Positions 401 through 28,939 of a stretch of 28,942 nucleotides of DNA are shown in pieces. Numbering within the stretch: the first letter of the stretch is position 1; every line of letters begins with the position of its first letter. The position numbers were made by a program, and so were the translations under genes. The notes below the pieces were generated by a model. The model was not told where the DNA came from. It worked only from the letters and a program-made list of their open reading frames with translations, and made no database searches. The DNA comes from a virus: positions 1-28,942 of IMG/VR virus record IMGVR_UViG_3300032288_002452. One strand, written 5' to 3'.

Positions 401-997
401 ATGAGTACATACAATCCACTATCTGATAGGTTTTTAACAATAGCAAATGTTAAAACAAGAAATGGACAAAAGGATGTAAGACTGGTGTTGGATGTTAATC
501 TAAATGTATTTTTTACATTGGATGATGATGGTAATTTCAAAGCCATTGAATTTCAACCACCAACCTTATCATTTTATATGGAGGGGAATACATCCGCAAC
601 AACAATCACAAGTGCAAATACTTGGTTTAATTTCGCATCAAATGTTGCGCCCATCCTCCAATACCAATCACAACTAAATAATGGATTACACCTCAATCTT
701 GCAACAGGTAAGATAGAATATACTGGGGAAACAAGATGGTTCTCAATACAAGGACATATTGAAGTAGCATCGGGGAACAACCAAGAGATTGATATTGCAT
801 TATTTAAGAATGGAACAATCACCCCAGGTTCAATAACAAAAGTAGTAACAACAAGTGGGGGTAAAACATCAACAACACCAGGACTATCAATAGTTCAATT
901 AAGTAATGGAGATATATGTGATATTAGAGTTAATAATACAAGTGGTAGCACAAACATAACTGTTAAATCATTAAATGTTATAATACAAGCAATATGA
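401..997 (+). CDS. Fibre paralogue 1: shared N-terminal module plus jelly-roll-like C-domain
   Basis: This 198-residue protein is probably a virion fibre or receptor-binding subunit. Residues 4-50 (YNPLSDRFLTIANVK onward, with NGQKDVR and LDDDGNF) form a module shared with the genes at 4634, 7545 and 8530; I count 25 identities in 46 positions against the 4634 product. The remainder, from about residue 60, has the alternating pattern of a C1q/TNF-like jelly roll, including ALFKNGT, SIVQLSNGD and a strand-like final segment. That fold is common in trimeric phage fibres. Its stop overlaps the start of the SHAEG protein (ATGA at 994-997), so the two are probably translated together. The fold is inferred from pattern only. 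Confidence 0.72.
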   Translation: MSTYNPLSDRFLTIANVKTRNGQKDVRLVLDVNLNVFFTLDDDGNFKAIEFQPPTLSFYMEGNTSATTITSANTWFNFASNVAPILQYQSQLNNGLHLNLATGKIEYTGETRWFSIQGHIEVASGNNQEIDIALFKNGTITPGSITKVVTTSGGKTSTTPGLSIVQLSNGDICDIRVNNTSGSTNITVKSLNVIIQAI

Positions 998-3927
998 GTT
1001 TAAGAATACAAAATAGTAGGCAACTATTAAAAAGAACCAATGTCAGTGGGGCAACCCCAACTGTAAATACAGGTTCAACACAACATACAGATGGAACTTG
1101 GACAGTAGATGAAATATATGCTGGTGAGTTATATTGGAATATGGAGGATAAATACCTCTATTTAGGTTGGGAAGACATTAGTGGTAATACTGGTGTTGAT
1201 ATAATTTATCCAGGTGGTTCATTCTTTACTGGGGGTAGTGGTAATTGTATTGCCGACTTTTATGTAACAAATATATTTGGATGTTCCCCAATCACAATAC
1301 ACGACAATCTTCAAAATCCTACTTCAACAGCAACTGGTTTATTAAGTAATGCTTTTGGACTTAATAATATTGCAAGTGGGGACTATAGCCACGCACAAGG
1401 TGTTGATAACGCTGCAACTGGTTATTCATCGCATGTTGAGGGTGTAGATAGTGTAGCTTGGGGTGATTATTCACACGCTGAAGGATTAACTAATATGGCA
1501 AGTGGTACAAGTTCTCATGCTGAAGGTGTTTTAACTAAAGCTATTGGTGATAGTTCTCACTCTGAGGGTGTAGAGACAACAGCTAATGGTTATGCTTCCC
1601 ATGCTGAGGGTAGTATTACTTTTTCCATTGGTGGTGCTTCTCACGCAGAAGGATATTTGAGTCAATCAGTTGGTGATTATTCCCACGCTGAGGGTGGTTG
1701 GGATACTTTTCCTTTTCCTTTTCCTTATACAGTTACAGGTAATACAGCTTTTGGTAATGGCTCTCATGCTGAGGGACAAAACACACAAGCCATTGGTATA
1801 TTATCCCACACAGAGGGATTAGCAACAATAACCATTGGATTATACTCCCATGCTGAGGGTAGAGAGACAATTGCTAGTGGACAATCTAGTCACGCTGAGG
1901 GTTATTTAAGCCAAGCCATTGGAGAATACTCCCACGCTGAAGGTGTTGCTTCAATTGCCCAAGGACAATATTCACACGCTGAAGGAAATAGTTCTTTTGC
2001 TTCAGGGATTGGAGCACATGCTGAAGGGAATAGTACACTGGCTACACAAGACTATGCACATTCTGAAGGAGATTCTACATTTGCTTTAGGCACAGCTTCT
2101 CATTCTGAAGGGGGTGCTACAATAGCTTCAGGCCCAAATTCCCACGCTGAGGGTAGTACCACAGTAGCAAGTGGTGATTCATCCCACGCTGAAGGTATAT
2201 CAACACAAGCTATTGGTGATTATAGTCATAGTGAGGGTGAACAGACAATTGCTAGTGGTTATTCATCTCACGCTGAGGGTTATCAAACTCAAGCTAATAA
2301 GGATTGGAGTCACGCAGAAGGTGTTCAAACAATTGCCAGTGGTGAATTTTCCCATGCTGAAGGTAGATTAAATATTGCATTAGGTGATGGTTCTCATGCT
2401 GAAGGGAATGGAACTACAGCTTCAACTTTTTATTCACATTCAGAAGGATTTGGAACAATAGCAAGTGGCGACTCTTCTCATGCTGAGGGTTTAACTACAA
2501 AAGCAATTGGTAGTGCTTCTCACGCAGAAGGTAGTGCAACACAAGCAATTGGTGGTGCTTCCCACGCTGAGGGTAGTGGAACAAAAGCATCAGGTTCATC
2601 ATCACATTCAGAAGGTATAAGTACTGAAGCCAATGGTGATTATTCACATAGTGAAGGAACTGGTTGTGCAGCTAATGGTTATGCTTCCCATGCTGAAGGT
2701 AATGATACTATAGCTGATGGTGTTGGTTCTCACGCTGAAGGATTAAATACTACATCAATAGGAAGTAATTCTCACTCAGAAGGATATTTGAATCAAGCGA
2801 TTGGGGATTATAGTCACGCAGAAGGTTCATTAGATGATGGAACATTTGTTTATGTCCCAACTGGTAATACTGCATTTGGTGGTGGTTCTCACGCTGAAGG
2901 ACAAAATACTTATGCTATTGGTAGATTATCACATACTGAGGGATTAAATACAAAAACATATGGATTATACTCCCATGCTGAAGGTACTGGAACAATAGCT
3001 AGTGGTACATCATCCCACGCAGAAGGTTCTTTTACACAAGCCCTTGGTGAATTTAGTCATAGTGAAGGAAGAAATACCCAAGCAATTGGAGAGGCATCTC
3101 ACGCTGAAGGTTATTTTACCGATGCTAATGGTGATTACTCACACTCAGAAGGACAATTCACAACAACAAATGGAACTGGTTCACATGCAGAAGGAATTGG
3201 TAATACAACAAATGGAGATAATTCACACGCTGAGGGTAGAAATAATATAACCAATGCTGACTATTCGCATGTTGAAGGTGAGGAATGTACAACATTCGCT
3301 AATTCATCCCACGCTGAAGGTTATCAAACTCAAACGAGTGGAACATCATCACACGCAGAAGGTAGTAATACAATTGCTGTAGGAACTTATTCACACGCTG
3401 AGGGGGTACAATCCCAATCAATAGGTATAGGTTCTCACGCAGAAGGTTTTGATACAGAAGCAATTGGGGATTATTCACATACAGCAGGAGAGGGAACAAT
3501 ATCAAACGCATCATATCAATCTGTTGTTGGTAGATTTAATGTTACAGGTTCTTGTCAGGGTGCATTGATTGTTGGTAATGGTACTTCAAATGTTGCGAGA
3601 AGCAATCTTATGGTGGCTTGTGGTAATGAAGTAACTATCAATGGAACATTATCTGCCACCACAATATCCGCAACAACATATCAAGGTATAGGGATGAAAT
3701 CCAATACAGTTGGAGGTGCATCATTTACAGGAACACCATTGACTTATGATGTGGTATTTACAACACCATACCCAAATACAAATTATTCAATCAGTATAAC
3801 TGGGGGTATTGATAGAACATTTACTTTTGAAAGTAAAGCAACAACTGGATTCAGGATAAACTCAAATGCCAATACATCATTTACAGCTAATGTTGATTGG
3901 ATAACTAAAACACACGGAGAAGCATAA
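994..3927 (+). CDS. Giant SHAEG-repeat tail fibre/adhesin, 977 aa
   Basis: Probable trimeric fibre or adhesin. Residues 1-130 form a non-repetitive N-terminus with an LYWNMEDKYLYLGWEDISG motif. From about residue 132 to 845 there are some 49 tandem units of about 14 residues, each starting SHAEG or a variant (SHSEG, SHTEG, AHAEG, SHVEG). This is the YadA-head-like pattern in which each unit adds a beta-roll coil. Units 8 and 34 carry longer insertions ending TGNTAFG. The C-terminal 130 residues hold a cap (VVGRFN, ALIVGNGT, NLMVACGNEV) and then a beta-rich tip preceded by a NGTLSATTISATTY segment that recurs in the next protein. The gene overlaps both neighbours by 1-4 nt. No catalytic motif is visible. 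The fibre role rests on the repeat architecture and the neighbouring fibre genes. Confidence 0.85.
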   Translation: MSLRIQNSRQLLKRTNVSGATPTVNTGSTQHTDGTWTVDEIYAGELYWNMEDKYLYLGWEDISGNTGVDIIYPGGSFFTGGSGNCIADFYVTNIFGCSPITIHDNLQNPTSTATGLLSNAFGLNNIASGDYSHAQGVDNAATGYSSHVEGVDSVAWGDYSHAEGLTNMASGTSSHAEGVLTKAIGDSSHSEGVETTANGYASHAEGSITFSIGGASHAEGYLSQSVGDYSHAEGGWDTFPFPFPYTVTGNTAFGNGSHAEGQNTQAIGILSHTEGLATITIGLYSHAEGRETIASGQSSHAEGYLSQAIGEYSHAEGVASIAQGQYSHAEGNSSFASGIGAHAEGNSTLATQDYAHSEGDSTFALGTASHSEGGATIASGPNSHAEGSTTVASGDSSHAEGISTQAIGDYSHSEGEQTIASGYSSHAEGYQTQANKDWSHAEGVQTIASGEFSHAEGRLNIALGDGSHAEGNGTTASTFYSHSEGFGTIASGDSSHAEGLTTKAIGSASHAEGSATQAIGGASHAEGSGTKASGSSSHSEGISTEANGDYSHSEGTGCAANGYASHAEGNDTIADGVGSHAEGLNTTSIGSNSHSEGYLNQAIGDYSHAEGSLDDGTFVYVPTGNTAFGGGSHAEGQNTYAIGRLSHTEGLNTKTYGLYSHAEGTGTIASGTSSHAEGSFTQALGEFSHSEGRNTQAIGEASHAEGYFTDANGDYSHSEGQFTTTNGTGSHAEGIGNTTNGDNSHAEGRNNITNADYSHVEGEECTTFANSSHAEGYQTQTSGTSSHAEGSNTIAVGTYSHAEGVQSQSIGIGSHAEGFDTEAIGDYSHTAGEGTISNASYQSVVGRFNVTGSCQGALIVGNGTSNVARSNLMVACGNEVTINGTLSATTISATTYQGIGMKSNTVGGASFTGTPLTYDVVFTTPYPNTNYSISITGGIDRTFTFESKATTGFRINSNANTSFTANVDWITKTHGEA
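1387..3490 (+). repeat. About 49 tandem 42-bp units encoding SHAEG repeats
   Basis: The DNA encodes consecutive 14-residue units with the core TC(A/T)-CA(C/T)-GC(A/T)-GA(A/G)-GG. Protein conservation is high but third positions vary widely, so most units are not recent slippage products. A higher-order duplication is visible: the block around 1650-1960 and the block around 2775-3085 match unit for unit at an offset of 1125 bp (375 codons). Confidence 0.93.
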
Positions 3928-4633: not shown

Positions 4634-5113
4634 ATGTACAATCCAAACAACTCCAAATACCTGACAGTTGCCCACGCCAAAAGTAATAATGGACAGAGGG
4701 ATGTTAGGATTATCTTAGATATTGATACCAATATCTTTTACACCTTGGATGATGATAAAAACTTTATCCAAATAGGTAGTTCAACTGGTGGTGGTTCAAT
4801 CATCGGTGGTAGTGTTATAAATAATAATCTTATATTGAACATATCAGATGGTTCAACAATCACAATCCCCAATATCTGTGAATGTTGTGTAATCCCACCA
4901 CCTACACCAACCCCAATTAAATTTGGGGCAGTAAGATGTTCAATGACTCCATATCATTTTTGTAATTATACTTATGATGATGGGGAAGTTTGGATGCGAT
5001 TAAAAATAAATACAAACAACATAAACGAGATTGAATATTATAATCCAAAGTTAGGACATAACCCTGCGGATTATTTAGACAGATATATCAATCCATTAAA
5101 CTATATAAATTAA
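4634..5113 (+). CDS. Fibre paralogue 2: shared N-module, Pro linker, distinct C-domain
   Basis: This 159-residue protein carries the shared N-terminal fibre module (residues 1-47, with NGQRDVRIILDI and LDDDKNF). After it come a Gly/Ser stretch (about 50-60), a CECC cysteine cluster, a PPPTPTP linker, and a C-terminal domain of about 65 residues (GAVRCSMTPYHFCNYTYDDGEVWMRL) with aromatic residues and cysteines that matches none of the other paralogues. It is the only one of the four lacking an obvious jelly-roll or beta-fibre C-terminus. The gene ends one base before the terminase small-subunit start. It is likely a minor virion decoration or adapter sharing an attachment site with the other paralogues. 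Function beyond the shared module is unknown. Confidence 0.68.
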   Translation: MYNPNNSKYLTVAHAKSNNGQRDVRIILDIDTNIFYTLDDDKNFIQIGSSTGGGSIIGGSVINNNLILNISDGSTITIPNICECCVIPPPTPTPIKFGAVRCSMTPYHFCNYTYDDGEVWMRLKINTNNINEIEYYNPKLGHNPADYLDRYINPLNYIN

Positions 5114-7138: not shown

Positions 7139-7561
7139 ATGACAACATATAAAATATCAAAAGATTACTGGAGTACTCTCCAAAATTTCAATACCTTACA
7201 AGAGTGTGAGGATTGGGTATTAATTACATTGGGGACAGGATATACAATCATAATATCCCCCGAACAATTACCTCCAACTACACCTGAACAAAGATTACAG
7301 GATGATTTACAATTTGGACATTATCTAATCAATGAATTTTTAATGGACAATAGATTGATTACCCCAGCGGTTACTCCATCTGAAAGTCTTCAACTATTAG
7401 CTGAGTTCGATAACATTGAGAAACTTGCAAGATTGGGGGATATAACATCTGTTAGCATTTTGTTAAACGCAATTCAAACTGATGTTAGATTATTCACCCA
7501 AGAAAGAAAAGATAAATACATAAACGAAATAAATTCACACTTAAATGCCGCTACAATATAA
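7139..7561 (+). CDS. Hypothetical phage protein, possibly fibre-associated, 140 aa
   Basis: I do not recognise a named family for this 140-residue protein. The N-terminal 50 residues are strand-like (YWSTLQNFNTLQECEDWVL, then GYTIIISPEQLPP). The rest is helical: FGHYLINEFLMDNRLI, a loop TPAVTPSES, then LQLLAEFDNIEKLARLGDITSVSILLNAIQ and a charged C-terminus. Its last 17 nt overlap the start of fibre paralogue 3, so the two are probably coupled. A chaperone or assembly factor for the adjoining fibres would fit the position, but no motif shows it. Confidence 0.6.
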   Translation: MTTYKISKDYWSTLQNFNTLQECEDWVLITLGTGYTIIISPEQLPPTTPEQRLQDDLQFGHYLINEFLMDNRLITPAVTPSESLQLLAEFDNIEKLARLGDITSVSILLNAIQTDVRLFTQERKDKYINEINSHLNAATI

Positions 7562-8522
7562 CCCAACAGATAGTCGTTTTTTGACTGTTGCACAATCAAG
7601 GACAAACAATGGACAGAAAGACATCCGTATTATTTTAGATATACCCACCAATGATTTTTATTCGTTGGATGATGATGGTAACTTCAACATAATCGGAGGT
7701 GGCGGAGGAAGCCAAGGTTTAGATAGTGTATTAGCTATTGATAATAGAAGTGGGTTTAATAATATCTTTTTTTCTGAACCACAATATGGATTAAATTTCT
7801 TTAATGGTTCATTATTTAAGGAAGGAACTAATGACGCAGGACTTGGTGGTGCTAATGGTGTTGCTCAAATATGTTCTGTTGGATATGAACTTAAATGGGA
7901 AGCAGGTAGATTATATGTTATGGAACAAGGTGGTATCACAATCCGTCAGAGTTTATGTAATCTAAGTAATCTCCCAACTCTAACTGATGACAATACTAAA
8001 GGTTATGTTGTTGGTAGTCTTTGGACAATGGATAATGGGGACATCTATAAATGTATTAGTGATACAACAGGTGGAGCTGTTTGGACTAGAATAAGTAATT
8101 ATTGGGATGGTGAATTAGAAATTGAAATAAAAAATACTAATATTTTAACTTGCGGAACAAATCCAATTCAGTTATTACCCGCACCAGGAGTTGGATTTTA
8201 TCTTACTTATGAAATGGATTTGAAAAAACCTGCATCAACTTCTATTGCTAATGCTAATGGTATTGATTATTTCTATATTGGTACAGATACATACGAGGGG
8301 AATATACTTCAAGTCTCAGATTATAATAGTCCTGCTAATGTTGTATTTCAATATGAAAGTAGAAATGGTATGAATACAGCAAATATCCCTGGTGGTATCA
8401 TCCCAGTTTATCCTATAACTACTAATGAAAACATAATATTTACAACATACAACGGGGTTAATCCATCAGCAGCAACAGGTAGTATATTTTTGACTATCCG
8501 TTATAAAATAAACAAATTTTAA
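7545..8522 (+). CDS. Fibre paralogue 3: shared N-module plus large beta-rich C-domain, 325 aa
   Basis: Probable fibre or receptor-binding protein of 325 residues. Residues 1-55 are the shared module, identical to paralogue 4 at 53 of 55 positions, ending in a GGGGG hinge. The middle contains KGYVVGSLWTMDNGDIYKCI and GGAVWTRIS, a motif common in phage fibres and lectin-like modules. The C-terminal half (YFYIGTDTYEGNILQVSD onward) is beta-rich and ends SIFLTIRYKINKF. The start overlaps the upstream gene by 17 nt, and only 7 nt separate its stop from the next paralogue. The unrelated C-terminus behind a constant N-terminus suggests a common docking site and different targets. Confidence 0.75.
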   Translation: MPLQYNPTDSRFLTVAQSRTNNGQKDIRIILDIPTNDFYSLDDDGNFNIIGGGGGSQGLDSVLAIDNRSGFNNIFFSEPQYGLNFFNGSLFKEGTNDAGLGGANGVAQICSVGYELKWEAGRLYVMEQGGITIRQSLCNLSNLPTLTDDNTKGYVVGSLWTMDNGDIYKCISDTTGGAVWTRISNYWDGELEIEIKNTNILTCGTNPIQLLPAPGVGFYLTYEMDLKKPASTSIANANGIDYFYIGTDTYEGNILQVSDYNSPANVVFQYESRNGMNTANIPGGIIPVYPITTNENIIFTTYNGVNPSAATGSIFLTIRYKINKF

Positions 8523-8529
8523 TTAAATT

Positions 8530-9378
8530 ATGCCATTACAATATAATCCAACAGAAAGTCGTTTTTTGACAGTAGCTCAATCCAGAACGAATAACGGACA
8601 GAAAGACATCCGTATTATTTTAGACATACCAACCAATGATTTTTATTCGTTAGATGACGATGGAAACTTTAACCTAATTGGAGGTGGGGGTGGTACTCAA
8701 AACTTATCACAAGTATTGAACCAAGGTAATTCAACAGGGGGCAACACCATATTATCCCCAGATACATTAAGTGAATTGGGTATTATTGATGGACAAACAT
8801 ATTTACTTTCTTCTGATGGAATCAATTTGTTTACTACCTATTTACAAATATTCCCAACAAGTGCATCTATAATAAGTTTAGATGGTTCTACTAACGATAA
8901 TTCATTAATTCAAAACACACAAAATTCAATAACTGAATATGTTGAATATAGTAATGGTGTTAGTAAAAACTCACTTGAAATTAGTCAAGGTGTAACAAAA
9001 ATAAAACACGATACAGCTGGCTCACAAATACAAGAAATCTATGTTGATGCTGCTAGTTTTAATGCACAATATAATGATGGTATTAATACTATATATTTGG
9101 AGGGTGGTTTATTAAATGGTGTTATGCAAGGTTGGACTGATGGAACAACATATGATACTTTTATTAGAACTAAATTTAATTCAATTGAATTATCAGTTGA
9201 TTTTGGTGGAAATAATTTTGCTTTTCAAGTTGATGCTAATGGGTTTTTTCCAAAGAACCTACCAGCATTCCAAGATGATGCAGCAGCTAGTGGATTAACT
9301 GCTGGTTATATGTATCAAACAACAGGAACGGGTGCTGCTCCATTAGATGTTGCGGGTATCGTAATGATTAAACAATAA
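8530..9378 (+). CDS. Fibre paralogue 4: shared N-module plus distinct C-domain, 282 aa
   Basis: This 282-residue protein repeats the N-terminal module and poly-Gly hinge of the preceding gene almost unchanged, but its C-terminus is unrelated to it. The shaft contains regular beta-strand segments (LDGSTNDNSLIQNTQNS, LEISQGVTKIKHD). The extreme C-terminus (FQDDAAASGLTAGYMYQTTG, then a short hydrophobic AGIVMIKQ end) is a tail-fibre terminal motif widespread in phages. Over the first 55 codons it differs from its neighbour at 23 bases, 21 of them silent, so the duplication is old and the protein sequence is held constant. Probably a second receptor-binding or structural fibre. Confidence 0.76.
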   Translation: MPLQYNPTESRFLTVAQSRTNNGQKDIRIILDIPTNDFYSLDDDGNFNLIGGGGGTQNLSQVLNQGNSTGGNTILSPDTLSELGIIDGQTYLLSSDGINLFTTYLQIFPTSASIISLDGSTNDNSLIQNTQNSITEYVEYSNGVSKNSLEISQGVTKIKHDTAGSQIQEIYVDAASFNAQYNDGINTIYLEGGLLNGVMQGWTDGTTYDTFIRTKFNSIELSVDFGGNNFAFQVDANGFFPKNLPAFQDDAAASGLTAGYMYQTTGTGAAPLDVAGIVMIKQ

Positions 9379-19684: not shown

Positions 19685-20617
19685 ATGAAATCTTTAGGAA
19701 AAAATTTTAAGTTCGCAATCACAGACAATACTACTTATAATGGTAGAGATGCTGTAGATTTTTTCAGCGAAGCTCTTTTGGATGGTACTACAATCAGAAC
19801 ATTTAGAACTATCCCTGGTGTTAAATCAAAAATTAAACTTCCTCAATATGATGCAGGTGAATTAATCAAGGACGCTGGTTGTTCTTGGAGCCCTGCTGGT
19901 GAGGGAACACTTTCTCAAAAAGCATTTGAGGTTTGTGATAAAGAGTTCCAATTGGAACTTTGTGTAACTACATTTGAAGCTAACTTCTTAGGTGAATACC
20001 TTAGAGCTGGTTCTAACACAGGTGAGGTTGCTCCTGAGTTATTCACTAACTATATGTTAGAGCAAGTTAAGAAAAAAGTTCAGAATGACTTGGAACTTGC
20101 TGTATGGCAGGGTGATGCTACTTCTCCAACTTATCCAACTAACATTTGTGATGGTTTGCTTTTACAATTGACTGGTGATGCAACAGTAATTAGTGCTGCT
20201 ACTACATTTGCGATTACATTGTCAAATGTTATCTCGGCAATTACTGAAGTATATGCTGTTATCCCTGAAACAATCATCAATAACCCTGACTTGGTTATCT
20301 ATGTTTCAACTTCAGTTTATAAATTATACCAACAAGCCGTAGCTGCTGCTTCATCTGAAGCTTACTATGTTGGGGCTAAAGAACCTAACTTCTTAGGAAT
20401 ACCTTTAGTATGGAGTCCTGGTTTGCCACCTAACACAATGGTATGTGGTGTTAAATCTAACTTCCTTATCTTAACTGACTTGTTAGATGATTTTGAAACT
20501 GTAACTGTTGTTCCACAATGGAATGTAGCTGCTGTTGATACATTGAGAATTGCTGGTAGATTCAAATTCGGTGTTTCTTATTTGCTTGGTTCAGAAATAG
20601 TATTATTTGTAGGATAA
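19685..20617 (+). CDS. mcp: Major capsid protein (HK97-like fold)
   Basis: The shell protein, 310 residues. The N-terminus (KSLGKNFKFAITDNTTYNG) leads to helix and strand segments: DFFSEALLDGTTIRTFRTIPGVKSKIKLPQY, then a Cys-containing FEVCDKEFQLELCVTTFEANFL. The C-terminal half has LDDFETVTVVPQWN and RFKFGVSYLLGSEIVLFVG, typical of HK97-like capsids of Bacteroidota phages. Codon choice is simpler than in its neighbours, fitting strong expression. It directly follows the protease/scaffold gene. The ATG at 19685 comes after a long poly-A leader and a TATA-like box near 19643. A terminator follows the gene. Confidence 0.9.
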   Translation: MKSLGKNFKFAITDNTTYNGRDAVDFFSEALLDGTTIRTFRTIPGVKSKIKLPQYDAGELIKDAGCSWSPAGEGTLSQKAFEVCDKEFQLELCVTTFEANFLGEYLRAGSNTGEVAPELFTNYMLEQVKKKVQNDLELAVWQGDATSPTYPTNICDGLLLQLTGDATVISAATTFAITLSNVISAITEVYAVIPETIINNPDLVIYVSTSVYKLYQQAVAAASSEAYYVGAKEPNFLGIPLVWSPGLPPNTMVCGVKSNFLILTDLLDDFETVTVVPQWNVAAVDTLRIAGRFKFGVSYLLGSEIVLFVG

Positions 20618-25123: not shown

Positions 25124-25517
25124 CTATCAATTATTAATTGGAGATAACTCCATAGAACTTTTTGAATATTTTAAAACAGAAGAATTACACGGATTATCAA
25201 GAGGTGTAGCTGAAGTGTATCCTGATACACCAGATAATGCTTATATATACGGAATGGCTAATTATCATCCTAAAGATATTAATTTAACTAAGGAATTGAA
25301 ACCCTATGTCTTCTTCAATAAGAAGAGGTTGAATGGTACTTATAAGGATGTTACAGGTATGATGCACGAATATCTACATTTGGGTAGATTGTTATTCAAC
25401 GAGATTACTGATGTTAATGAAGAACAAGTAGTTCAATTTATTGAGAATGAAATCAATTGGATAGTTGAAAATGGGGTAATTGGAATATTTGAACAACCCT
25501 CAACAAAATATATGTAA
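25101..25517 (+). CDS. HExxH putative zinc metalloprotease, 138 aa
   Basis: A small putative metalloprotease. The zinc-binding motif is H89-E90-Y-L-H93 (in TGMMHEYLHLGRLLF), and an acidic E115 or E117 (QFIENEINW) about 22-24 residues on could be the third ligand, as in gluzincins. The preceding region has a beta hairpin (VFFNKKRLNGTY). The N-terminal 60 residues (NYQLLIGDNSIELF, RGVAEVYPD) match nothing I know. It overlaps the holin gene by 23 nt, so it is probably translated with it; a lysis or virion-associated role is then plausible. No signal peptide is seen. Alternatively it is a non-catalytic HExxH fold. The terminator at 25523 follows. Confidence 0.62.
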   Translation: MRAINRGNYQLLIGDNSIELFEYFKTEELHGLSRGVAEVYPDTPDNAYIYGMANYHPKDINLTKELKPYVFFNKKRLNGTYKDVTGMMHEYLHLGRLLFNEITDVNEEQVVQFIENEINWIVENGVIGIFEQPSTKYM

Positions 25518-25522
25518 ATTAA

Positions 25523-25557
25523 AAAGCCCAACCGATTAAGTTGGGTTTTATTTTTTT
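25523..25557. terminator. Bidirectional terminator between lysis operon and initiator gene
   Basis: AAAGCCCAAC (25523-25532) pairs with GTTGGGTTTT (25540-25549) around a 7-nt loop, with one G-U pair. It is followed by seven T (25551-25557) on the plus strand and by T-rich sequence on the minus strand. It separates the converging holin/protease and initiator genes. Confidence 0.87.
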
Positions 25558-25580
25558 ATCGCTATCGCTCGGTTGAAGTA

Positions 25581-26297
25581 TTATAATATTCCATACTCTT
25601 CAATTCTATATTTATCAATGTGGTAATATTTTTCAGATTTTAATTTATTGAATAAAATTCTATATTCTACTTTTAGTTCTAACTCCAAGGATTTTTCATC
25701 TTTATAAATATCAAAAAGTTCTTTTAATATATTTACATCCCCATCCTCTTCAACCAAAAAATCATTATTAAGTAAATTATTATTATCTTCTTTAATATTA
25801 TTATTTATATTATTAATAGATGTAGATTTCAACAAACCTATTTGCTGATTTCTACATATAGGTTCGTTGTTTTCTACATATGGTTTGTTGTTTTCTACAT
25901 ATGGTTCGTTGTTTTCAACATATGTATCTATTTGAGGTTTGTTGTTTTCAACATATGTATCTGTTTGGTTAATATCATCATTCAACAATTTTTCAATGTT
26001 AGTATAACATTCATCATCAATTAAAAAATAAGTTATTCTCTTTTCAACCCAAGAGTTAATTAATCCCTCTTCAACCAATAATCCTTTAGCTTTTTCATAA
26101 GAATGTCTTTGAATGAATATAGCTTTCTGAATATCATTATGAGATTTAAAAAAACTTTTACCTTTATAAAATTCTTGTTGTTCAATCAAATATCCTAACA
26201 ATGTTGCTGCTTCCAAACTTTTAAGATTATTGATTAAAATCTTGCTAAGTATTAAATAATTACCTTTCTCCATTATTATCTTTTTCAAATTTTTCAT
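25581..26297 (-). CDS. Putative replication initiator with internal iterons, 238 aa
   Basis: Probable origin-binding replication initiator. Residues 10-92 form a winged-helix-like domain (LEAATLLGYLIEQQEF, KSHNDIQKAIFIQRHSYEKAKGLLVEEGLI with a wing strand after it). Residues 111-150 are a repetitive polar linker (TYVENNKP, PYVENNEP) encoded by the iterons. Then come an Asn-rich stretch, and a C-terminal acidic helical domain (about 186-238: VNILKELFDIYKDEKSLELEL) that could recruit host replication proteins. N-terminal DNA binding, a repeat-bearing linker and a C-terminal helicase-loader domain is the layout of lambda O. No polymerase, primase or helicase is seen elsewhere. The main alternative is a transcription factor with this winged helix. 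Its upstream TATA-like box is at 26310. Confidence 0.68.
   Translation of the reverse strand: MKNLKKIIMEKGNYLILSKILINNLKSLEAATLLGYLIEQQEFYKGKSFFKSHNDIQKAIFIQRHSYEKAKGLLVEEGLINSWVEKRITYFLIDDECYTNIEKLLNDDINQTDTYVENNKPQIDTYVENNEPYVENNKPYVENNEPICRNQQIGLLKSTSINNINNNIKEDNNNLLNNDFLVEEDGDVNILKELFDIYKDEKSLELELKVEYRILFNKLKSEKYYHIDKYRIEEYGIL
25761..25820. other. AT-rich region next to iterons, candidate DNA-unwinding element
   Basis: Sixty bases with only five G or C, about 40 bp from the repeats and within the same gene. On the minus strand it encodes the Asn-rich linker. An AT-rich element flanking iterons is what plasmid and lambda-type origins have for duplex opening. Confidence 0.5.
25861..25956. 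repeat. Four 21-bp direct repeats (candidate iterons)
   Basis: Copies at 25861-25881, 25882-25902, 25903-25923 and 25936-25956, written on the plus strand as GGTT(C/T)GTTGTTTTC(T/A)ACATAT. The first three are contiguous; a 12-bp spacer (GTATCTATTTGA) precedes the fourth and a near-copy of it (GTATCTGTTTGG) follows. A degenerate fifth copy lies at about 25840-25859. The 21-bp period (about two helical turns) and location in the candidate initiator gene suit cooperative binding of one protein. In the minus-strand protein they encode a 7-residue repeat. Confidence 0.8.
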
Positions 26298-26309
26298 ATA
26301 TTTATGGTT

Positions 26310-26321
26310 GTATATAAATAG
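26310..26321 (-). promoter_or_regulatory. TATA-like box, minus strand, before initiator gene
   Basis: On the minus strand CTATTTATATAC ends 12 nt before the initiator ATG (26297). It is shared in form with the plus-strand boxes. Confidence 0.38.
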
Positions 26322-26331
26322 TTTATTTTAG

Positions 26332-26363
26332 TCCTCATCTATTACTGTAGGTGGGGATTTTTT
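26332..26363 (+). terminator. Plus-strand-specific terminator inside minus-strand gene block
   Basis: TCCTCATCTA (26332-26341) pairs with TAGGTGGGGA (26348-26357) around a 6-nt loop, then six T (26358-26363). The stem uses two G-U pairs in plus-strand RNA; in minus-strand RNA those would be A-C mismatches. The direction is therefore plus, although flanking genes are on the minus strand. Confidence 0.7.
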
Positions 26364-26655
26364 ATTGTTGGGTTTTTTTAAGTTTATTTTTATAATAATT
26401 AATTACCATTTGATATCTTGTAGTATCATTAGGAAAAATCTCATCTTGTTGTTGTTCATTTAAGATGGTATAGTTAAAACCTTTATAATTAAAACTCCAA
26501 CTACCATCTCCATTTATGTCTTTGTGTTTATTTTTATAGACATAGGCGAATGATACTCCAATGAGTTCACACAATTTTTGTATAGTTTGTGACGCACCTA
26601 TTAGTTCATCACCACTCAAAAGAATATACTTTATTGATTTTACTGCTTTTTTCAT
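26362..26655 (-). CDS. Small possible DNA-binding protein (NUMOD1-like), 97 aa
   Basis: This 97-residue protein is upstream of the initiator gene on the same strand. Residues 13-55 (LSGDELIGASQTIQKLCELI, then GVSFAYVYKNKHKDINGDGSWSFNYKG) have a strand, a helix-turn-helix-like stretch (TIQKLCELIGVSFAYVYKN) and a Trp-containing strand. That is the layout of NUMOD1-type DNA-binding modules. The C-terminus is acidic then Lys-rich (NYYKNKLKKTQQ). It is a candidate regulator of the divergent promoters that lie behind it, where a palindrome and a tandem repeat are found. The match is by eye and weak; no nuclease domain is present. Confidence 0.55.
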   Translation of the reverse strand: MKKAVKSIKYILLSGDELIGASQTIQKLCELIGVSFAYVYKNKHKDINGDGSWSFNYKGFNYTILNEQQQDEIFPNDTTRYQMVINYYKNKLKKTQQ

Positions 26656-26821: not shown

Positions 26822-27661
26822 ATGAAATTAATCACAAAACAAACAACAACAAAAACCAAAAATATCCTATTCAACTTACTAGGGGAATGTGGATATACAT
26901 CAATTGAACAATTCCAAAGATTGAATAGATTGACTGAGGATGGATTATTTGGTATAAACTCATATAATGCTCTATATAACATTATATTGAACCCACAACC
27001 AGTATTATTTGATAATTACTACTACAAACAAGCACATCCAAAAAAACAAATAATACTTCACCATTCAGCAGGATGGGATAATGCAAGAGGTATGTTTAAT
27101 TGGTGGATGAATGATGGTGTATCGCATGTCGCAACAAGTATCGGAATATCAGATGATGGTAAGTTATATAAAGGATTTGATGAACAATATTGGGCATTTT
27201 CAATAGGGTGTGAAACCCAAACATTTATTAAGAATGGTGTTGAACTAAAATATAGAAATGGTAGGATAATTAACAACCAACAATTGGATGAACAAGCTGT
27301 TGCAGTTGAAATATGTAATTGGGGAACACTAACCAAAAAGCTTGATAAATATTATAGTTGGGCAAATGCTGAAGTACCCACTTCAAAAGTGATTGAACTC
27401 AATTATAAAAATCAAAAGTATTTTGAAATATATACAGATAAAGAAATTGAAACAACGAAATATTGGATATTGTTAAACTCAATACGATTCGATATACCGA
27501 TAGATTATTCGTATGATGATATGTTTAATGTATCAAAGAAAGCTTTGTCAGGAGAAGCTGGTATATTCACTCACAATAGTTATAGATTGGATAAGTCAGA
27601 TATATCACCTCAACCAAAAATGTTAGATATGTTAAAAAATCTAATTGATTACACAAAATAA
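26822..27661 (+). CDS. N-acetylmuramoyl-L-alanine amidase endolysin, 279 aa
   Basis: Endolysin that cuts the bond between MurNAc and L-alanine in peptidoglycan. Residues 13-56 resemble a peptidoglycan-binding module (ILFNLLGECGYTSIEQF, RLTEDGLFGINSYNALYNI). The amidase_2 domain starts KKQIILHHSAGWD, with zinc ligand candidate H80 or H81. It continues SHVATSIGISDDGKLYKGF and YWAFSIGC, then AVAVEICNWG with E163, and ends GIFTHNSYRLDKSDISPQP with H251 and D260 as probable ligand and catalytic-region residues. No signal peptide is visible, consistent with release through a holin. It is followed directly by a terminator and lies away from the holin gene, in a separate unit. Confidence 0.9.
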   Translation: MKLITKQTTTKTKNILFNLLGECGYTSIEQFQRLNRLTEDGLFGINSYNALYNIILNPQPVLFDNYYYKQAHPKKQIILHHSAGWDNARGMFNWWMNDGVSHVATSIGISDDGKLYKGFDEQYWAFSIGCETQTFIKNGVELKYRNGRIINNQQLDEQAVAVEICNWGTLTKKLDKYYSWANAEVPTSKVIELNYKNQKYFEIYTDKEIETTKYWILLNSIRFDIPIDYSYDDMFNVSKKALSGEAGIFTHNSYRLDKSDISPQPKMLDMLKNLIDYTK

Positions 27662-27668
27662 AAAAAAT

Positions 27669-27690
27669 ATCCCCTCAATGGGGATTTTTT
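27669..27690 (+). terminator. Terminator after amidase
   Basis: ATCCCC (27669-27674) pairs with GGGGAT (27680-27685) around a 5-nt loop, followed by six T (27685-27690). Confidence 0.85.
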
Positions 27691-27701
27691 ACTTTTATCA
27701 G

Positions 27702-27717
27702 ATATTTATAATAAAAA
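27702..27717 (+). promoter_or_regulatory. TATA-like box after amidase terminator
   Basis: ATATTTATAATAAAAA starts 12 nt after the terminator T-run and ends five bases before ATG 27723. It fixes this ATG as the start, since the in-frame ATG at 27645 lies before the terminator. Confidence 0.42.
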
Positions 27718-27722
27718 ATGAT

Positions 27723-28145
27723 ATGAACGAACAATGGGAAAAAGCTAAGAAGGTATTAGAGAAACAAAATCTACCTGAGAAAATCACACAACAAAATATT
27801 AAGTACCTATCCGCATTGTTGGTTAGGGATTTTGAGGAGTTAATAGACTTTGAGGGAATAATACTCCAAACAAATAAAGAATTGTTAGATGATTTCACAA
27901 GGTTATCCTACTTCCAAATCTTATACTGGAATTACTTTTTGGAGTTGGAACAATACGAACATTGTGAAGTGGTTAAATCATCCATCCAAAACCTAAAGAA
28001 TTTGACTACAAGACTACTTTATAAGAAAATTGATGGTGAGGTTGTCCCCGATGAAGAAGTTGAAGAATACTTGGATATTATCTTACAGGAGGGTATCCTA
28101 AGTGTTAATGAAATCTATAATCTAAACTATTTACACAACCTATAA
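27723..28145 (+). CDS. Hypothetical protein upstream of sigma-like gene, 140 aa
   Basis: I do not recognise this 140-residue, mainly helical, acidic protein. It begins MNEQWEKAKKVLEKQNLPEK, has central helices (YLSALLVRDFEELIDFEG, FTRLSYFQILYWNYFLELEQY) and a charged C-terminus (PDEEVEEYLDIILQEG). The stop codon is immediately followed by the start of the sigma-like gene, with no gap. I chose ATG 27723 because the longer frame, starting at 27645, would begin within the amidase gene and cross a terminator. The all-helical composition and tight coupling to the sigma-like protein suggest a partner or a regulator, but nothing demonstrates it. Confidence 0.68.
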   Translation: MNEQWEKAKKVLEKQNLPEKITQQNIKYLSALLVRDFEELIDFEGIILQTNKELLDDFTRLSYFQILYWNYFLELEQYEHCEVVKSSIQNLKNLTTRLLYKKIDGEVVPDEEVEEYLDIILQEGILSVNEIYNLNYLHNL

Positions 28146-28676
28146 ATGAAAGAACAGATAGACGAATATTTTACTACAAGAATCAATGACTTAAGACAAT
28201 ATTATATTAAGTTTTGTACCCCATCTGAGAAAGAATATTTTGGGGTAATGATTTCAAATCTTTACGAACATATATATAACAACCAAACCAAACTCCAGGA
28301 CATCATTAACAGGGGTGAAATCCACTACTATTGTCTGAGTTATATATACAATCAAAGGAACTGGAACGATACAGACTTTAAAAAATACATTAATATCAAA
28401 GAGAATTATAGTGATGATATTCCCCTATCAAATATCTTAGACGATGAGGATGTATATGAACTAAAAGCCCAACAAGAAATTGATTACACCAACAAACTAA
28501 CCAAGATTAATATTGCATTATCCAAGTTGGAGTTACACGAAAAGATTTTATATGATAAATACTTCAACCAAAAACAATCAATGAGAAAGATAGGTGCAGA
28601 CATTGGGGTATCGCATGTATCAATCCACCACGCAATACAAAACATAAAGAAGAAAATCAAAAACACCCCAATATAA
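28146..28676 (+). CDS. Sigma-70-like transcription factor, 176 aa
   Basis: Probable phage sigma factor or sigma-like regulator. Residues 120-172 look like sigma region 4: KINIALSKLELHEKILYDKYF, then the helix-turn-helix SMRKIGADIGVSHVSIHHAI (about 145-164) and a Lys-rich end. Residues 1-80 are helical (KEQIDEYFTTRINDLRQYYIK) and might stand in for region 2, but the typical -10-binding sequence is not evident. An acidic linker (about 88-112) joins the halves. It directly follows the 27723 gene. If it directs the TATA-like boxes reported in this window, it would be the late-gene switch; a small DNA-binding regulator such as a terminase-like HTH protein is the alternative. Confidence 0.68.
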   Translation: MKEQIDEYFTTRINDLRQYYIKFCTPSEKEYFGVMISNLYEHIYNNQTKLQDIINRGEIHYYCLSYIYNQRNWNDTDFKKYINIKENYSDDIPLSNILDDEDVYELKAQQEIDYTNKLTKINIALSKLELHEKILYDKYFNQKQSMRKIGADIGVSHVSIHHAIQNIKKKIKNTPI

Positions 28677-28690: not shown

Positions 28691-28939
28691 ATGAAAGAAA
28701 CTAATTTCGCACAACAAAGATTGGATAACATTAAGAAGCTAGGGGACTTGTTAATTGCATTGGAGGGAAGAACAAAAGCCACCAGTGATGAACTAACCCT
28801 ATTATTCAATCTACATAACTATTTCAACCCCAAACGACAAGAGTATTCAAAACATTGTACATCTTGCGTGGTGAGGGTTTATAAACGAACTAAAATATTA
28901 TACGATGCTCTCAAATCTGAACTTGAAACAGGAATATAA
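28691..28939 (+). CDS. Small CxxC phage protein, 82 aa
   Basis: I cannot name this 82-residue protein; the last 120 nt are also present as bases 1-120. The N-terminal half is helical (FAQQRLDNIKKLGDLLIALE, then ATSDELTLLFNLHNYF). The C-terminal half has a PKRQEYSKHCTSCVVRVYKR segment with a CxxC pair and many basic residues, ending in an amphipathic helix (ILYDALKSELETG). The basic CxxC stretch could contact nucleic acid or bind metal, with only two cysteines in one monomer. It lies 14 nt after the sigma-like gene and overlaps the next gene by 35 nt. Confidence 0.75.
   Translation: MKETNFAQQRLDNIKKLGDLLIALEGRTKATSDELTLLFNLHNYFNPKRQEYSKHCTSCVVRVYKRTKILYDALKSELETGI

Follow-up and report, generated by a model that had tools for sequence, protein, structure and literature searches.

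The putative initiator gene and the repeats within it

The window analyzed here is a stretch of 28,942 nucleotides of viral DNA. Near its right end it has a minus-strand gene for a putative replication initiator of 238 residues, and an array of direct repeats (iterons) and an AT-rich element lie inside that gene. The features of the locus are as follows.

25523–25549, both strands: terminator-like hairpin where the structural genes and the oppositely oriented initiator gene converge
25581–26297, minus: O-like replication initiator gene, 238 aa, so named from a weak match to O-like PHROGs and a predicted fold
25759–25818, no strand: AT-rich element, putative DNA-unwinding element, 4 G/C in 60
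25817–25838, plus: possible sixth iteron, inverted and degenerate (16/22), adjoining iteron 5
25839–25860, minus: iteron 5, degenerate and in another codon phase, 17/22 against the consensus (73% identity)
25861–25882, minus: iteron 4
25882–25903, minus: iteron 3
25903–25924, minus: iteron 2
25925–25935, minus: spacer separating iterons 1 and 2
25936–25957, minus: iteron 1, CATATGTTGAAAACAACAAACC, the first on the gene strand
25956–26297, minus: predicted winged-helix DNA-binding domain segment, residues 1–114 (AlphaFold2)
26362–26655, minus: 97-aa gene that lies upstream of the initiator gene and is adjacent to it in relatives G001 and G030 too

The four best repeats are 22 nt long, are 91–100% identical over that length, and have starts 21, 21, and 33 nt apart. 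All iteron starts fall between codons 114 and 154 of the gene. With a spacing of about two, and once three, helical turns, the iterons would look out from much the same side of the double helix. Tandem Repeats Finder reported a 33-nt unit of spacer plus iteron at 25903–25967 (2.0 copies, 93%). The AT-rich tract starts 4 nt past the last window repeat, and the segment 25759–25818 is the 60-mer of lowest GC content in the genome; 60-mers with five or fewer G/C are found nowhere else in its 28.9 kb. The original prediction, made from the letters alone, had described four direct repeats with a degenerate fifth, a spacer that recurs as a second periodicity, and a 60-bp stretch with five G or C, and all of this was borne out with small adjustments of length and count.

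Seven sites genome-wide score at least 17/22 against the iteron consensus. Chance was assessed by simulating the genome 200 times with a first-order Markov model, with a 22-mer partner of at least 20/22 within 120 nt as the criterion; no simulated site had even one such partner, and the real array has three. The iteron array and the AT-rich element are far beyond chance. Dyad symmetry of the iterons, judged by a shuffle test, was not significant in the window (p=0.12); the same test gave p=0.015 in relative G001, and for phage lambda the symmetry was reached in 0 of 1000 shuffles. Matches to a sigma-70-like promoter around the initiator gene were no more frequent than in shuffles. DnaA-box consensus matches were absent near the array and occurred only far away, mostly in the repetitive gene at 994–3927. 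GC skew, which the original prediction had offered as a check, gave no origin signal independent of gene orientation and speaks neither for nor against an origin here.

The two ends of the record are the same 123-bp direct repeat, which gives a genome length of 28,819 bp, and the genome was therefore taken as that of a complete small phage. The gene order across the junction (28146–28676, 28691–28939, 86–373) matches the contiguous start of G001 (44–625, 641–883, 867–1154). By terminase large subunit (TerL), the nearest named phages are those of Bacteroides, Parabacteroides, and Phocaeicola, at about 34% identity, and the product of 19685–20617 has matches to Nonlabens phages only; a Bacteroidota host is therefore likely. 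Elsewhere in the genome, 28146–28676 encodes a 176-aa protein matching phage RNA polymerase sigma factors (PHROG 351, 5.7e-07). The gene at 994–3927 encodes a 977-aa protein with many 14-residue repeats of SHAEG type (42-nt units), and a similar protein is found in relative G024. The products of 401–997, 4634–5113, 7545–8522, and 8530–9378 have a common N-terminal module (YNP..SRFLTVA.S.TNNGQKD.R.ILD...F.LDDDGNF) and differing C-terminal parts, which suggests that they share an attachment module and carry interchangeable parts for the tail or for receptor binding.

The initiator protein and its relatives

As the original prediction had supposed, the protein appears to begin with a winged helix. 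AlphaFold2 modeled the N-terminal 114 residues with a mean pLDDT of 79.8 and a pTM of 0.73, as helices and a two-stranded wing, and the fold predicted for the domain (about residues 13–112) is a winged helix similar to that of O-like initiators. In the full-length prediction residues 110–238 are of low confidence, so that the layout is a winged-helix N-terminus, a low-confidence linker encoded by the putative origin, and a short C-terminal part; neither the window initiator nor that of G001 matched a curated C-terminal domain. The best viral structural matches of the N-terminal model include the DNA replication protein of Lactobacillus phage Ld17 (6.9e-05) and a protein of Eggerthella phage PMBT5, two phages that were reached by sequence search also. 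Sequence matches in the PDB were to designed filament proteins, over the Asn/Glu-rich linker, and were set aside as effects of composition.

Direct searches with the window initiator protein in IMG/VR and a phage collection gave no relative, nor did scans of genome contigs; relatives were therefore reached through TerL. The TerL search led to 80 related contigs, of which 42 were searched for an initiator homologue. Two of the 42 have one, a third contig carries the same gene, and most TerL relatives have no detectable homologue of the window initiator. Three of the examined relatives without a window-type initiator instead encode BT4734-like primase-type proteins, and replication modules therefore seem to have been exchanged within the TerL-related group. 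In G001, where TerL is 76% identical, the initiator has 206 aa and is 34% identical to that of the window (E=3.3e-11). In the window, the initiator and its upstream neighbor (25581–26655) are oriented against the structural genes, and in G001 (25240–26341) they share the direction of those genes; the block is an inverted replication cassette relative to G001.

The direct match of the window initiator to O-like PHROGs is weak (E=0.014), and a family search of the genome gave no O-like PHROG match. The G001 initiator matches that of L127 (2e-5), which is encoded two genes upstream of DnaB and has O-like PHROG matches at 6e-10. From L127 the chain extends to gp22 of Flavobacterium phage Fpv5, annotated as a replication initiation protein (2e-23), to a Lactobacillus phage LL-Ku protein annotated as 'replication initiation O-like' and encoded beside a DnaC-like loader, and to an O-like protein of Fusobacterium phage phiBB, encoded beside DnaB. 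The window protein thus appears linked to annotated O-like initiators stepwise, through intermediates only. A profile comparison of lambda O with the window initiator gave E=0.54 in the wrong region and so no detectable sequence homology, and we claim no kinship with lambda O itself; a sequence search found no solved structure of lambda O.

No match to DnaB_C was found in the genome, and no loader, primase, or other replication gene was recognized among 20 proteins scanned against PHROGs, 10 of them also against Pfam, several predicted structural proteins lying outside the scan. Within that scope the initiator is, as first proposed, the only recognizable replication gene, and it may, as was also suggested there, amount to a self-contained minimal replicon.

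The repeats might instead be operators by which a winged-helix regulator acts on the transcription of its own gene or of neighboring ones, the protein being no replication initiator. Matches of the predicted fold in the PDB do include MarR/ArsR-type regulators, and autoregulation is common among initiators. The sites, however, lie in the middle of the gene, rather than at a promoter, and adjoin the genome's AT-richest 60 bp; the homologues are annotated as replication initiators and are encoded near DnaB or DnaC-like loaders; and no other gene of the genome was recognized as serving replication. We consider the operator reading very improbable.

Reading phase of the repeats

The reading phase of the repeats bears on whether they are constrained as DNA or as protein. 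The four best window copies lie in a single phase and encode YVENN[KE]P, their spacings of 21 and 33 being multiples of three, so that the degenerate fifth copy has to carry the phase argument for the window itself. That copy is out of phase and encodes PICRNQQI, where the in-phase copies have PYVENNEP. The G001 initiator gene, which has no trace of the window repeat, contains five iterons of the ACTACAGAAGTCCCAAAT type at exactly 22-nt spacing, and since 22 does not divide by three they drift through all three frames. Their phases are 2, 0, 1, 2, 0 and their peptides LQKSQI, TTEVPN, YHRSPK, LQKSQI, and TTEVPK; the mean DNA identity is 0.90, and the out-of-phase peptides are 0–33% identical. 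Lambda O served as a positive control: its annotated iterons start at codons 117–139, in phases 0, 2, 2, 1 and with spacings of 20/24/23, and an AT-rich tract follows 7 nt after them. Mixed-phase arrays within O-like genes were also found in phiBB, PVP-XSN, and Ab9.

At the level of sequence, the DNA of the repeats is conserved and the peptides are not, and this reading phase is the decisive evidence. The 7-residue peptide repeat of the original prediction holds for the four in-phase copies and fails for the fifth, and the VENNEPY peptide seems to be a side effect of the in-phase spacing. Its further claim, of a necessary double role of the repeats as DNA and as protein, found no support, the out-of-phase copies encoding unrelated peptides. 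The repeats could also be purely a feature of the protein, a disordered linker rich in Asn and Glu in which a segment was duplicated in tandem and in frame, with no DNA function. That would account for the one phase of the four window copies, but it is contradicted by the fifth copy, by the G001 repeats, and by the mixed-phase arrays in lambda, phiBB, PVP-XSN, and Ab9, and it is very improbable.

Iterons are not visible in every relative with an O-like initiator. The expectation that they persist among relatives held for the nearest ones and was not clearly borne out in distant phages such as Fpv5 and Ld17. No clear array was found in the gene in Fpv5, L147, L148, LL-Ku, or Ld17, which are more distant and have O-like initiators, and the comparison of Fpv5, L127, LL-Ku, Ld17, PMBT5, X29, and Ld25A gave either no array, or a weak one, or one that did not clearly exceed codon-shuffled controls or did not clearly look like iterons.

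A putative lambda-type origin and comparison with known systems

The explanation that we favor, with a probability of about 0.9, is that of a phage replication origin of lambda type inside its own initiator gene. It builds on what can be read from the DNA, namely the repeats and their constraint at the DNA level, the adjoining AT-rich element, the chain of homology to O-like proteins, and the terminal repeat. It bears out the core of the original prediction, for which the lambda-like position, spacing, and AT-rich neighbor of the repeats and the predicted winged helix also speak. By analogy with lambda (PMC5043065) and the Stx phages (PMC7466680), we infer that the N-terminal winged helix of the initiator would bind the 22-nt iterons, that the resulting nucleoprotein complex would melt the adjoining 60-bp AT-rich element, and that a replicative helicase, presumably that of the host, would be loaded there and start replication.

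The host helicase is the likely partner because no phage helicase or loader was recognized, and we infer that it is recruited. It is possible, although somewhat short of probable, that this complete 28.8-kb phage is an O-only replicon, in which the single recognizable replication protein both assembles the complex at the origin and brings in the host helicase itself, with no phage loader or helicase involved. The proteins encoded by 26362–26655 and 27645–28145, whose G001 homologues are close to the initiator gene, are candidates for an unrecognized helicase adaptor.

A lambda-type origin within the initiator gene is a known design, of which the window appears to be a well-supported further example; the small twist is that its genome has no recognizable helicase or helicase-loader gene. 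The result provides a well-delimited candidate origin, about 200 bp long, in an uncultured phage whose hosts are probably Bacteroidota, a group in which lambda-type initiation is not known to have been studied experimentally. It also provides a general test for gene-embedded origins, since true iterons are free to shift from one reading frame to another and coding repeats are not. With homologous initiators and unrelated iterons, the window and G001 form a natural pair that would be useful for work on initiator specificity and origin co-evolution. The apparent absence of a loader and helicase raises a testable question on how the host helicase is recruited.

The origins of lambda and SPP1 lie within gene O and gene 38, respectively (PMC5043065, PMC6316719). 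Like the window, oriL of SPP1 combines direct repeats and an AT-rich element within the initiator gene (PMC6316719); unlike it, SPP1 has its own loader (gp39), a DnaB-type helicase (gp40), and a second origin. The O-like initiators of Flavobacterium Fpv, Lactobacillus Ld and LL-Ku, and Fusobacterium phiBB phages (PHROGs 678 and 9773) are connected with the window protein by the sequence chain and by N-terminal structure matches. The Fpv5 protein differs in a C-terminal Phg_2220_C domain that is not recognized in the window protein, and among these O-like genes clear iterons are present in phiBB and not in Fpv5 or LL-Ku.

The origins of the Stx phages P27 and 933W are of lambda type, lie in gene O, and have six iterons, the outer ones weakly bound (PMC7466680). 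They share with the window a lambda-type gene O origin with more than four iterons and differ from it in being close lambda relatives that carry a P gene; the AT-proximal iterons, which are bound most strongly in Stx origins, are the degenerate copies in the window. Compared with lambda itself, the window has an unrelated iteron sequence in possibly five or six copies, its genome is without gene P or another recognized loader, and its host is probably one of the Bacteroidota. The likeness lies in the architecture, with the iterons just after the N-terminal DNA-binding domain (codons 117–139 in lambda, 114–154 in the window), a spacing of about two turns in mixed phases, and an AT-rich element immediately 3' of the array.
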